DNA of 64,000 nt from a bacterium (GTDB lineage: Bacteria; Electryoneota; RPQS01): contig JAHDVH010000003.1 of assembly GCA_023382385.1 (NCBI GenBank), positions 62,001 through 126,000 of the forward strand. Reading direction: 5' to 3'. Shown here piece after piece: positions 20,461-40,993 of the stretch (its first letter is position 1; each line of letters begins with the position of its first letter). The position numbers and the translations under genes were made by a program. A model generated the notes under the pieces. The model was not told where the DNA came from. It did no database searches and saw nothing but the letters and a program-made list of their open reading frames with translations.

Positions 20461-20533
20461 GGGGCAGTAGCTCAGCTGGGAGAGCACCACGTTCGCAACG
20501 TGGGGGTCGGCGGTTCGATCCCGCTCTGCTCCA
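20461..20533 (+). tRNA. tRNA-Ala (anticodon CGC)
   Basis: A 73-nt cloverleaf with a seven-pair acceptor stem (GGGGCAG with CTGCTCC) that contains the G3-U70 wobble, the identity element for alanyl-tRNA synthetase. The anticodon CGC is at 20494-20496, flanked by the five-pair stem CCACG/CGTGG, and the T loop is GGTTCGATCCC-like. The discriminator is A73. The 3' CCA is not encoded. It lies immediately upstream of the SRP RNA. alaS for the same amino acid is in this window at 29853. Confidence 0.95.
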
Positions 20534-20556
20534 CTACCGCAGTTTGCCCGTTATTT

Positions 20557-20675
<119 letters not shown>

Positions 20676-35308: not shown

Positions 35309-36781
35309 TCAGCGAAGAAGAGTTACACGGACGGACGAATGAGCGTCGCTTGCACGAAGCCAATAGGATCCGCTGGGCAAGCCGTCAGGCAGTTTCCAAG
35401 TCCGACTCATGTTTGATCCACCTATACTTGTAATCTCTCTTCCTAAAATGTCGTACAGACGAATCTGTGACGACTCGCCAAGAGGAGCGATCGTCACCCA
35501 ACCGGTCGTAGGATTGGGAAACAGACTTAGTGTAGGCGAGGGACTTCGGGACTGATCTTCACTTGCAGTACCTCTCCATGAACCGTCGAAAAACACATCT
35601 CCGTCGTCACCGATCAGACGACCACTCCAGACGACCGCGAAGCCTTCTTCATCGGCGGCACATCCAAAACCTTCAGAAACTACAAGCCCGTTCAGATCCG
35701 AGACCGGTTCTTCCAATTCCCATGCCCAAGGTTGGTTGATACTGGCACGGCGAAACAAGAGCTGTCCGGTCTGGTTTTGTACCTGAACACGGGCATAGCA
35801 AATGCCAATCTCACCTGCCGCTTCCATCAATCGCGGGTTTACGTTATCGAAGGGGCTATCCGTAAGCTGAAGGGGGTCTGACCACGACACGCCGTTGTCC
35901 GGGGAGTACGTCGCGTAAATCTCACGGGCGACAGAGGCATTGTTCCGTCGCTGATATGCAAGCATGATCGTACTCTCACGGGAGATAAGAGTGGGCCTTG
36001 TCTGAGCGTAGCTGCTGATATCGGGAGTTAATTGAGTGCTCCAGTGACTGCCAAGGTCATCTGAGTAATACAATGCTATCTGCTCGCCGGTTGAACCTGG
36101 CCGGTCAATCGCGGTGGCAACCCAAAGCCTCTCATTCTCACCTTCCCATGTCACTGCGGCTGCGATACTCGCCGAAGAATCCTGCATGGGAAGGCCCGAT
36201 GCGAACCAGCCGCTACTAAACCAGTCCTGACCGTAGTTCATCGCATAGAAGTGACCAAGCGTCCCCATGCCATTTGAAGAAGCTGCCAGCACAAACAAGT
36301 GAACATAAGGATCCTCGTTGGAAAAGTCGAAGTCTGAGAGCAATACTGCGTCTTTCAGCACCGTATTCTCGGGGACAACCAGAGGAGAGGAAGGTTCCGG
36401 CCAATTTGACGACGTATGAGATATTCTGCGATAGTGTATATCTGAGCCATCGCGAGCAAAATTCGATATATACGCGTACCGGTCGTCACTGGCAGTTGCG
36501 AACTTTATGTACTCAGGAGTCACTGTCCTGTCAGTAAACGCTTCCCAAACTTCGCCGTACAATTGCGAGGTTCGCATGCTCAGGACATTTGATTCGCGCA
36601 CACAAAAGGCTCGAAACTGACCGTCACCGATCGGGACTACTTGCGGACTCCATTCGTGTTGATCCGTACCAAAAACTACCACATCATGACTCCAGTCCAG
36701 CTGCGCACAAAGCACACCCGGCAGTAGCAGGATTGAGAAAAGACTAAAGGTCTGACCAGAGTTGAAGTATCTGAATCGCAT
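35309..36781 (-). CDS. Secreted protein with BNR-like repeats and T9SS C-terminal sorting domain
   Basis: About 490 aa. Signal peptide MRFRYFNSGQTFSLFSILLL (continuing to VLCA) from the ATG at 36781, preferred over an in-frame start at 36811 deeper in asd. The body has repeats of the sialidase/BNR type (GSHWSTQL, NGVSWSDPL). The last 75 residues match the type IX sorting domain: LSLFPNPTTGWVTI, then IRLYDILGREI, then LPDGLPSGSYWLRAS. This implies export through the Sec system and then T9SS. No catalytic residue can be named. It overlaps asd by 38 nt and ends the slt-selD-asd operon. Confidence 0.85.
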   Translation of the reverse strand: MRFRYFNSGQTFSLFSILLLPGVLCAQLDWSHDVVVFGTDQHEWSPQVVPIGDGQFRAFCVRESNVLSMRTSQLYGEVWEAFTDRTVTPEYIKFATASDDRYAYISNFARDGSDIHYRRISHTSSNWPEPSSPLVVPENTVLKDAVLLSDFDFSNEDPYVHLFVLAASSNGMGTLGHFYAMNYGQDWFSSGWFASGLPMQDSSASIAAAVTWEGENERLWVATAIDRPGSTGEQIALYYSDDLGSHWSTQLTPDISSYAQTRPTLISRESTIMLAYQRRNNASVAREIYATYSPDNGVSWSDPLQLTDSPFDNVNPRLMEAAGEIGICYARVQVQNQTGQLLFRRASINQPWAWELEEPVSDLNGLVVSEGFGCAADEEGFAVVWSGRLIGDDGDVFFDGSWRGTASEDQSRSPSPTLSLFPNPTTGWVTIAPLGESSQIRLYDILGREITSIGGSNMSRTWKLPDGLPSGSYWLRASDAHSSVRVTLLR

Positions 36782-37721
36782 TGGAGGCCGCGCCTTTTCG
36801 CAAATTGTCACCTACGACCCAAAAATGCAGCCAATGATTATCGTCCGGGTCGATTCGCACACGTCCGACATGCACATCCTGCTGACCGCTGACTTCGAGG
36901 GGAGTCGCGTAATCAGATCCGTCACAAATGAGTCCTGGAAAATCAGAAAGACATTTCAAGACATCGGCCAATGATGTCCCCTGCAGCAACTCCACGCTGA
37001 CGGAGGCCGCATGCCCAATTTCGACAGGCACACGTACAGCCGTCGCACTTACGTGAACGTGCTCTCGGTTCAGAATCTTCTTGATCTCACTGACTATCTT
37101 GGTTTCTTCCGCACTATAGCCACTACTCTCCCAGTGTCCGACTTCTGGGAAGAGATTTCCGGCAATCCGCCGAGGTAGAACTTCAGGCTTGGCGTTAGCG
37201 TCACGATTCTGAGCTCTCATTTCTTCAACTGCGGCCGACCCTGCACCCGATACGCTTTGGTATGTCGAAATTAGAGCACGACGCAAGCCGAATCGTCGAT
37301 CAAGCGGTGCCAGGGCCATGACAACCACTGATGCCGAACAATTCGGATTTGCGACCACGCGAGTTTGTGATGTGATTCTGTCGGCATTAACTTCCGGAAT
37401 CACTAAAGGCACGTCGTCGTTCATGCGAAATGCGCTGGAATGGTCAATCACCCGAATCCCACGCGCCTCTAACTGCGGCACCCACACTCTCGAATGTTCT
37501 GCCGAAAGAGCGAGAATGGCATACTCTGCGTCAACTTCGTCGCCTTCCATCGAGCGGACTTCATGAAGCTCTCCGTTGCACTTCATCGTTTTACCGACCG
37601 AAGACGTCGACGCATATAGACTTAGCTCTGCCAATGGGACGCCCCACTCTTCCAGGACTGCAAGCGTTGTCTGGCCTACCAATCCGGTTGCCCCTAATAC
37701 TGCAAGTCGCACAGGTTTCAC
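36744..37721 (-). CDS. asd: Aspartate-semialdehyde dehydrogenase
   Basis: 325 aa. GATGLVGQ is the NADP-binding loop. The catalytic Cys128 is in NPNCSAS, where most relatives have NPNCST. The substrate-binding region includes YQSVSGAGSAAVEEM and RVPVEIGHAASVSVEL with the active-site His. It reduces aspartyl phosphate to the semialdehyde in lysine, threonine and methionine synthesis. The ATG at 37721 shares its last base region with the selD stop, so selD and asd are coupled. Confidence 0.95.
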   Translation of the reverse strand: MKPVRLAVLGATGLVGQTTLAVLEEWGVPLAELSLYASTSSVGKTMKCNGELHEVRSMEGDEVDAEYAILALSAEHSRVWVPQLEARGIRVIDHSSAFRMNDDVPLVIPEVNADRITSQTRVVANPNCSASVVVMALAPLDRRFGLRRALISTYQSVSGAGSAAVEEMRAQNRDANAKPEVLPRRIAGNLFPEVGHWESSGYSAEETKIVSEIKKILNREHVHVSATAVRVPVEIGHAASVSVELLQGTSLADVLKCLSDFPGLICDGSDYATPLEVSGQQDVHVGRVRIDPDDNHWLHFWVVGDNLRKGAASNAIQILQLWSDL

Positions 37722-38767
37722 TATTGAGTCACCACGATTCCAGTGCCTTCAACGACTTCGCCAATCTCCGCATAGTAAATATTCTGTGTACCGAGGGATT
37801 GCTGCGCCAGTTCAAATTGTCCTCGAGGAATGGCGACCAGCAGTCCCCCGGACGTCTGGGCGTCAAACATTATCCACTGCATTGCGCTCGACACCTCCGA
37901 AGCGAACTCCACATAACTCCCGAGGTACAGCTTGTTCATCTTTGTTCCGCCAGGGACCTTTCCCTGTTCTGCAAGTGGGAGAGCGCTTTCCAGCACAGGT
38001 ATTGAAGCCGCATGCATCTTGAACTGAACGTTTGATGCCTTGGCAATTTCGGCGGCATGACCGAGCAGCCCGTTGCCCGTAATGTCTGTGGCAGCCTTGA
38101 TCCCACAGTCACGCAAGGCAAGCTGTGCGTGCTTATTCAATGTTTGCATCCATCCTACTGCAGCACCAATCTCCTGCGCAGTCAACAGTTCATTCTTCAA
38201 CGCAGTCGTGAGAATTCCCAACCCAAGCGGTTTAGTGAGAATCAGCACGTCGCCCGGCCGTGCACCGTTGTTACTCCACATGTTTGCCGGGTCAACCAAT
38301 CCTGTGACGACCATGCCATATTTTGGCTCTTTATCGTCAATCGTGTGCCCGCCTGCGACAACGATGTCTGCTTCCGCCGCCTTTTCGGCACCGCCGCGCA
38401 GCACTTCACGCCAAATGTCCGGCGAAATTGCCTTGGGAAAAGCACAAATGTTAAGAGCAAAGAGCGGCCTGCCGTTCATCGCATAGACGTCGGAAAGGGA
38501 ATTAGCCGCTGCAATTGAACCATAATCGTAGGGGTCGTCGACCACAGGAGTGAAGAAGTCCACTGTCTGTACAATCACCTCACCCGAAGGGAGGCGATAG
38601 GCTGTGGCATCATCACGATGGTCGAACCCGACAATCAGGTTCTTGTCGCGTGCTGCAGGAAGCCCGCCAAGAATGAGATCCAGCACCGCCGGATCCATCT
38701 TAGACGCTCAACCAGCACAGCTTACCAGATGCGTCAGCTTGGTCAGCTCTTCTTTTGTGTAGGACAT
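37721..38767 (-). CDS. selD: Selenide, water dikinase, a selenocysteine-containing enzyme
   Basis: Makes selenophosphate from selenide and ATP. Reading from the ATG at 38767 (2 nt after the slt stop) gives 348 aa, the E. coli SelD length, with one in-frame UGA at codon 20 (38708-38710). The context is SCAG-U-ASKMDP. Aligned with E. coli GCGCKISP, the UGA falls on the catalytic Cys17 position and K23 on Lys20. Downstream are the usual VQTVDFFTPVVDDPYDYG, GGHTIDDKEPKYG, DITGNGLLGH and FDAQTSGGLL motifs. A start at the ATG of codon 24 would remove the entire active site. A SECIS-like hairpin follows the UGA. Sec in SelD is known in several lineages. Confidence 0.93.
38669..38701 (-). promoter_or_regulatory. 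Putative bacterial SECIS hairpin in selD mRNA
   Basis: Beginning 6 nt after the UGA, AAG-AUG-GAUCC pairs with GGAUC-CAU-CUU, with two single-U bulges on the 3' side, around a nine-base loop GGCGGUGCU. The loop starts 17 nt after the UGA, within the spacing expected for SelB-dependent bacterial SECIS elements, and has exposed G residues. The pairing was done by eye. No energy was computed. Confidence 0.6.
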
Positions 38768-38769
38768 GG

Positions 38770-40929
38770 TTACTGTTCTGAATCCGGCGATGTTAGATTC
38801 AAATCCGGATAGACACGGCGGTAGGCCGCAATGTGCTGAAGGATGTGCTTGACATAAAGTCGTGTTTCCCGATAAGGGATCAACTCGACAAACACATCAG
38901 GTGGAAAGTTGCCAAATTCGGATTGCCACCGCCTGGCTGCGTTGATGCCGGCGTTATATGCGCAAAGCGTGAGAATCACGTCTCCATTCAGACTGCGCTG
39001 CAAATCCGCGATGTGCGCAATCCCGATTTCGAGGTTTCGCGGGCCATGATAGAGTTCTTCTTCTCGCAAAACCTGCCCCATGCGCTTGACCTGTAAACGA
39101 GCGGTCTCCGGCATCAGCTGCATCAATCCAATAGCGCCGGATGGACTTACGATTTTCTCATCAAAATGGCTTTCCTGACAAATCACGCCAAGGGCAAGAT
39201 ACGGATCCACTTCGTAGCGGCGGCACATGTCCAACAGGAGCGGTTCGTAATCAAGCGGATACCACAGTTCATAGAACTCAGCGGGACGGCTCCCTACGGA
39301 CGAAGCTTCATTGCGAAACTCCTTGATAATCCACTTCCACGACTCGAAACGATCCCCATTCTTCCAGTAGAGCAGTGGTCTCCACCAAGCGAGATCTGCG
39401 CGCTTTCCACACTCAGCTTCGACTTGAGGCCATTCGCGTAACGCAAACTCCCATAGACCAAGCGCCGTTAGCTGAGCGAAGGCGCGAGAGTGTGATCCAC
39501 CCAGCGCATGGACTTCATTTAAGCTCAGTACTCGCATGTCACGCCGAACAGGAGTTGGCAAGTCACTCAGCGAGCATGATAACAGAGCGTAGTATGAGAA
39601 AGGAAAGCGGCTGAGAAGCTCAGAGCACAAGCTGTCGCGCATATCCCTTCGGCCGATTTCGCTGAAGCTCCTGGCTGCCCAGTAGAGGCCGATGGGAACA
39701 TAACCGGACTCGGGATAACTGCGCACAAGGCGTACGAAATCGGAGGATGCGCTCTCATACTTTGCAGAAAGATAGCGAGTCCAACCGCGCATCCAAAGGG
39801 CATCGTCCGCCCCTCCGGCACCTTGCGCAGCCTCATACCACTTGCTCGCGGCGTTGGCTGCCTCTGCAAGGTTGTTACGGTCAATGTGCAGCAAGGCAAT
39901 CAGCCGCCAGGATTCTCCGACTCGCGACTTATCCGTGCCGGTTCTCGCAAGCTCTTGGGCCGTACTAATCGCCAACTGATCTTGATCTTTCAAGTAGGCT
40001 GATCGCACAATGCACCAACGCATTTCATCCCGAAAACTCGACTCCGGAAACTGCTTTATGTGCTGTTGAGCAAACTTAAGCGCATCGTCATGCCTGCGAA
40101 GTGCTACTGAAAGTCTTGCCTGCATTGCTATCATTTGCTCGTCGTACGCCGCGTAACGGCCACGACTTCGCAAAGCTGACAGTCGGTCAAGCGCATCATT
40201 TTTCATCCCCGCACGCTCAAGGCGCTCGACCTCGGCCCACTCGCCGCTCCAGCCAGGATCAGGCGGAGTGAAGCCGTAGGTTACAGCATAGGAAGACAAC
40301 CTTCGCTTCGCGTCCTTTCCCTGCGACGAAGCGGGAGCATCGAGATACGTTGACCGAAGCAGAGTGGTCGCGTCGGAGTGTTTCCCGGAGAGCGAAAGGA
40401 ATTTGGCAATCTCGAGATTGATGGCCTGTCGAATCCCGACCGCCACTTGATTTGAGCGAGCAGCGCTGGCGAGGCTGTTCAACGTGTCCAAATTGCCCTG
40501 TGCGCGGGCATCTTCAAACAACTCCTTTGCCGCAAGATCACGATAGTCGGGCAGTGATGAGGAAAGGAGCCTTCTCCAATAGATTCCCGCAAGATGAGGC
40601 TGGCCAAGTTGCGTAAGTGACTTTGCTCGCAGCCATGCGGCATGATCCTCAAGGTCGGGTGGAACCCCGAGATCGAGTATGGTGGGGACTAGTGCAATGT
40701 TGGAATCTGAGTATGCGAAACAAGCGGATAGGAAGTTTGCGAGACTTTCCCACTCCGGCGAAGATGGTAAACTGCGGGATGCCAACAAGGACTCGGAGGC
40801 AAGCGTGTCTCCTGCCAATCGATAGCCCCAAATCTGGGCAACTCGAGCAGAGTCATCCGCAAGAGTTGCCGCCAGTATCGGATATGGCGCGAGAAGAATT
40901 GCCAAGAGCGTGCTAAGTTGGCGAAGCAT
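38770..40929 (-). CDS. slt: Soluble lytic murein transglycosylase (Slt family)
   Basis: About 719 aa. Signal peptide MLRQLSTLLAILLAPYPILA from the ATG at 40929, preferred over an in-frame start at 40968. A long alpha-helical superhelix (many TPR-like pairs, about 30-550) is followed by a C-terminal SLT domain with catalytic Glu in ICQESHFDEKIVSPSGAIGLMQLMP and the downstream LTLCAYNAGINAA. It cleaves peptidoglycan glycan strands to 1,6-anhydro products in the periplasm. It is first in an operon with selD and asd, which have no evident functional link to it. Confidence 0.9.
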   Translation of the reverse strand: MLRQLSTLLAILLAPYPILAATLADDSARVAQIWGYRLAGDTLASESLLASRSLPSSPEWESLANFLSACFAYSDSNIALVPTILDLGVPPDLEDHAAWLRAKSLTQLGQPHLAGIYWRRLLSSSLPDYRDLAAKELFEDARAQGNLDTLNSLASAARSNQVAVGIRQAINLEIAKFLSLSGKHSDATTLLRSTYLDAPASSQGKDAKRRLSSYAVTYGFTPPDPGWSGEWAEVERLERAGMKNDALDRLSALRSRGRYAAYDEQMIAMQARLSVALRRHDDALKFAQQHIKQFPESSFRDEMRWCIVRSAYLKDQDQLAISTAQELARTGTDKSRVGESWRLIALLHIDRNNLAEAANAASKWYEAAQGAGGADDALWMRGWTRYLSAKYESASSDFVRLVRSYPESGYVPIGLYWAARSFSEIGRRDMRDSLCSELLSRFPFSYYALLSCSLSDLPTPVRRDMRVLSLNEVHALGGSHSRAFAQLTALGLWEFALREWPQVEAECGKRADLAWWRPLLYWKNGDRFESWKWIIKEFRNEASSVGSRPAEFYELWYPLDYEPLLLDMCRRYEVDPYLALGVICQESHFDEKIVSPSGAIGLMQLMPETARLQVKRMGQVLREEELYHGPRNLEIGIAHIADLQRSLNGDVILTLCAYNAGINAARRWQSEFGNFPPDVFVELIPYRETRLYVKHILQHIAAYRRVYPDLNLTSPDSEQ

Positions 40930-40993
40930 GGACGCAAAGTAAGCAAAAGAACCTCGAAAAACAATCATCTTAATAGTCTCATTCAGCTGCTCA

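Follow-up and report, generated by a model that had tools for sequence, protein, structure and literature searches.

Selenocysteine (Sec)-containing forms of SelD are well known in bacteria (PMC5029168, PMC1794560, PMC1088965, PMC4561486) and, together with FdhA, represent the most widespread bacterial selenoprotein (PMC5029168; also PMC1794560, PMC13188914), in agreement with an earlier preliminary description of the locus reported here, which had noted that some SelD enzymes contain Sec. The features by which Sec-containing bacterial SelD (COG0709, TIGR00476) is recognized – a catalytic Sec in the N-terminal loop, a Lys three residues further on, AIRS and AIRS_C domains, a bacterial SECIS (bSECIS) element just past the UGA, and Sec-decoding genes – are all found here, and there is no essential difference from the described proteins. 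The nearest relatives are 59–70% identical, and the closest records are metagenome-assembled genomes (MAGs) and one that carries the name candidate division KSB1 (60% identity).

The selD gene and its in-frame UGA codon

The window – the whole 64-kb stretch of DNA that was analysed – contains a selD gene (selenide, water dikinase) on the minus strand at 37721..38767. Translated with UGA as Sec, it encodes 348 residues, MSYTKEELTKLTHLVSCAG-U-ASKMDP..., in which the single UGA is codon 20 (38710-38708, minus strand) and the codon for Lys23 lies at 38699..38701 on the same strand. The product matches the NCBIfam model TIGR00476 over nearly its full length (358.7 bits; cut-off 125) as well as NF002098 (330 bits; cut-off 299), contains the domains AIRS and AIRS_C, and has an N-terminal start (MSYTKEEL/MAYTKDEL) that is kept across the family. 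The preliminary description had the coordinates right and left the strand unstated; a plus-strand reading of 37721-38767 gives a meaningless translation. It had also claimed that extending the gene upstream through one UGA restores the SelD active site, with its SCAG-type stretch, and that automatic annotation would start at codon 24 without that site. Both claims hold, the first by translation and the second by plain ORF calling, which places the start at 38698 (codon 24) and yields 325 residues with the active site lost.

Residues U20 and K23 of SelD align with the catalytic Cys and Lys of the solved chains 3u0o and 2yye, as the preliminary description had proposed, and both chains are homologous to the window protein along almost its entire length. 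As deposited, they carry Cys here, whereas the window SelD has UGA; 2yye is the SelD of Aquifex aeolicus, an enzyme that natively contains Sec. The gene thus has UGA where homologues have Cys, one criterion for a bacterial selenoprotein, and its N-terminal loop shows what is expected of a SelD, a catalytic Cys or Sec with Lys at the +3 position.

A lone in-frame TGA proves nothing, since such codons are common by chance; a loose scan found 37 places in the window, selD included, where the frame is open on both sides of an in-frame TGA. The placement of this one is not chance, because it coincides precisely with the position of the catalytic Cys, has Lys three residues on, and is shared with relatives, Sec-containing SelD proteins having been suggested earlier for comparison: the residue-20 codon is TGA in 107 of the 109 relatives with a readable site, one of the others having TGT and one TGC, a ratio that applies to the nearest relatives picked by search and should not be taken as the share of SelD proteins in general that contain Sec. 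The 109 loci combine those from species genomes with those from whole-genome searches of relatives, some genomes being present in both collections; 103 of the 48-nt TGA stretches are distinct. In a set of 61 genomes, 42 of 45 SelD matches contain exactly one TGA, and the exceptions are two Cys-containing fusions and L105, where the match begins past the site, at a contig end. The SelD parts of the long fusions (L109 and L111) are 47 and 45% identical to the window protein; they differ from it in having frames of about 740–750 residues and a Cys codon (TGT, TGC) at the site. One genome (G016) contains both a Cys-codon SelD fusion and a UGA-containing SelD.

The codon and its conservation, both observed directly, bear on the simplest alternative, namely that the UGA either terminates translation or results from a sequencing error, the gene being broken or starting at codon 24. 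This would fit the 325-residue form given by plain ORF calling, and yet we consider it extremely improbable, as the same TGA recurs in relatives from many separate assemblies, the residues preceding it are also conserved, and a codon-24 start would leave a shortened SelD with neither the catalytic residue nor the Lys. At the level of sequence, codon conservation in practice refutes a stop or a broken gene.

The selD gene lies between a lytic transglycosylase-like gene (slt; 38770..40968, minus strand) and an aspartate-semialdehyde dehydrogenase-like gene (asd; 36744..37721, minus strand). A gap of 2 nt separates the end of the slt-like gene (38770) from the selD ATG (38767), just as the preliminary description had it, and the start of the asd-like gene meets the selD stop. 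An slt-like gene is found upstream of selD in all ten distinct relatives inspected and an asd-like gene downstream in seven; the other three are L106 and L107, from a sister family, and L108, a short stretch. The slt–selD–asd order (36744-40968) is thus kept in much of the family, and we know of no functional link of slt or asd to selD. Elsewhere in the window, a tRNA-Ala (CGC) is followed by a small SRP RNA (20461-20666, plus strand) upstream of a dnaX-like gene.

A SECIS hairpin downstream of the UGA

The bSECIS model, whose constraints are taken here from a 2026 review (PMC13188914), specifies a loop of 3–9 nt with G in the first two loop positions, an upper stem of 4–16 bp, a UGA-to-loop distance of 16–37 nt, and a minimum free energy (MFE) of −7.5 kcal/mol or lower. 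A SECIS-like hairpin had been proposed within 38660-38715, and folding and covariation locate its stem at 38677..38695 on the minus strand, with an 8 bp upper stem (GAUCCGGC/GCUGGAUC), the loop GGU (38687-38685), and further weaker pairs beneath. It agrees with all four constraints of the model: a 3-nt loop with G first, an 8 bp stem, 20 nt from UGA to loop, and −18.6 kcal/mol.

Among 23 distinct sequences from the same phylum, 174 of 184 stem base pairs (94.6% of cells) are retained, and compensatory changes, with both sides altered, are directly observed at three pairs. When the partner is slid by 1 to 3 columns, pairing in these sequences falls to 15–46%, and RNAalifold, unprompted, predicts seven of the eight stem pairs. 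As the hairpin lies within coding sequence, a stricter test followed, in which each sequence was recoded with synonymous codons according to its own gene's codon usage. The recodings gave 118.8 ± 4.9 pairs with a maximum of 139 (2000 trials), against the 174 observed; the summed folding energy of the 23 sequences is −356 kcal/mol, compared with −219 ± 14 kcal/mol after recoding (300 trials). The 23 sequences are kin rather than independent draws, and the gap to the recodings is nonetheless large. For the window's own selD alone, 0.7% of synonymous recodings fold equally well, and the two Cys-codon SelD genes show no excess folding over their recodings. The selD hairpin is conserved beyond the constraint imposed by the protein.

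Not all of the 103 distinct sequences, which include many from Chloroflexota, can be fitted to the fixed 8 bp register – only 23% have at least seven of the eight pairs in it – and the covariation test was therefore confined to the 23 same-phylum sequences. Nevertheless, 58 of the 103 fold better than 95% of their synonymous recodings, and these perhaps use another stem register. An inverted-repeat search did not pick up the selD hairpin, probably owing to its G-U pair and short loop.

Sec-decoding genes and other selenoproteins

The genome that holds the window is 2.9 Mb in seven contigs and is 98% complete. It contains a tRNA-Sec with anticodon UCA (C1:221551-221645; 57.8 bits, the sole match above the Rfam gathering score of 47), selB (C1:230132-231958; 335.3 bits against a cut-off of 242.25) and selA (C1:236547-237638; 415.9 bits). 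The SelB protein has a winged-helix domain (SelB-wing_3), and domains of this kind bind SECIS elements in characterised SelB. A full Sec-decoding gene set is thus directly observed, and the combination of tRNA-Sec, SelA and SelB in one genome, a further criterion for bacterial selenoproteins, is present; the preliminary description had predicted selA, selB and selC elsewhere in the genome, and their absence would have counted against its reading. The three genes lie within about 16 kb on contig C1 (L127, G000:C1:220000-239990), with a TlpA-like thioredoxin gene close to selA; selD lies on a different contig, C3.

SelA and SelD mostly co-occur in the phylum. G013 (100% complete) and G035 (89%) have no real SelA match and also no SelD, and G036 (80%) has neither. 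As for mismatches, G007 (88% complete) combines a UGA-containing SelD with the absence of a SelA match, and in G006 and G021 SelA is found and SelD is missing; the completeness of these three genomes is 77–88%, and the mismatches are likely due to missing sequence.

Other selenoproteins were sought one protein family at a time. A second UGA-containing gene, of the kind the preliminary description had suggested searching for, encodes a SelW-like protein (Rdx family) and lies outside the window, on the plus strand (L173:961-1182, equivalent to G000:C6:7160-7381). It has one internal UGA, in the CxxU motif (MNWSIEYCVVU), and all nine matches in the relatives searched have one TGA. The proposed UGA-containing fdhA was not borne out: none of the three molybdopterin-family matches in this genome has an in-frame stop, and no Sec-containing FdhA was found. 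Nor were in-frame stops seen in its AhpC/TSA-like, AhpD-like, HesB-like or thioredoxin genes. Members of the family differ in their selenoproteins, since UGA occurs in molybdopterin genes of some relatives (L136, L137 and L138, in G003:C232, G011:C16 and G005:C195; possibly formate dehydrogenase), in AhpC/TSA-like genes of others (G001, G002, G003, G004, G006 and G008), and in AhpD-like genes of G002 and G003.

These genes bear on two further alternatives. Reassignment of UGA throughout the genome to Trp or another residue, which the preliminary description had itself raised as fatal to its reading, would explain the one in-frame UGA read through in selD. We regard it as scarcely credible, given that the ten clear genes of the window end in TGA (5), TAA (4) and TAG (1), that the SelW-like gene has its internal UGA at CxxU yet terminates in UGA, that the genome encodes a tRNA-Sec with anticodon UCA, and that no conserved genes with UGA at Trp positions were seen. 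Alternatively, the UGA might be decoded with no involvement of selenium, which has been proposed for the UGA-containing SPS1 of Hymenoptera, where stem-loops beside the UGA are thought to aid the process (PMC4561486). Most of the Sec-decoding components are missing from Hymenoptera, however; here all of them are encoded, together with a second selenoprotein gene, and the chance of selenium-free read-through appears negligible.

Sec-decoding bacteria without FdhA all have Sec-SelD (Zhang et al. 2006; PMC1794560), and a genome with Sec-SelD and no detected Sec-containing FdhA is consistent with this pattern. The same authors suggested that Sec-SelD could maintain Sec decoding where FdhA is absent, perhaps serving selenouridine formation (PMC1794560); that beneficiary is missing here, as this genome has no match to selenouridine synthase (TIGR03167). 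It is conceivable, at somewhat less than even odds, that the whole Sec-decoding apparatus is kept for SelD and the SelW-like protein only, with neither Sec-FdhA nor selenouridine synthase; further selenoproteins may exist, because six other protein families are all that were checked.

Predicted Sec insertion and the proposed role of SelD

We conclude, with a probability of about 0.97, that selD here is functional and encodes a selenoprotein, with the UGA at codon 20 being read as Sec by means of SelB and the hairpin. Sec insertion itself, the enzymatic activity and the feedback described below we infer from the families to which the proteins belong. Delivery of Sec by SelB, formation of selenophosphate by SelD and its use by SelA are established steps of the bacterial pathway. 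In this organism, SelB with GTP and Sec-tRNA-Sec would bind the hairpin just 3′ of the UGA and deliver Sec at codon 20, where it would replace the catalytic Cys in the N-terminal loop and help to make selenophosphate from selenide and ATP. SelA would convert the selenophosphate supply into Sec-tRNA-Sec and, since it needs selenophosphate to do so, SelD would supply selenium for its own synthesis. Inherited SelD enzyme may keep this loop of self-dependence running, and the loop would presumably apply to any Sec-SelD.

The finding is an ordinary case of a known and widespread arrangement, and no general view is changed by it. For annotation, it means that the active site of this SelD is lost when genes are called in the standard way; it also contributes one more well-supported Sec-decoding lineage, in which selD has a clear SECIS hairpin.
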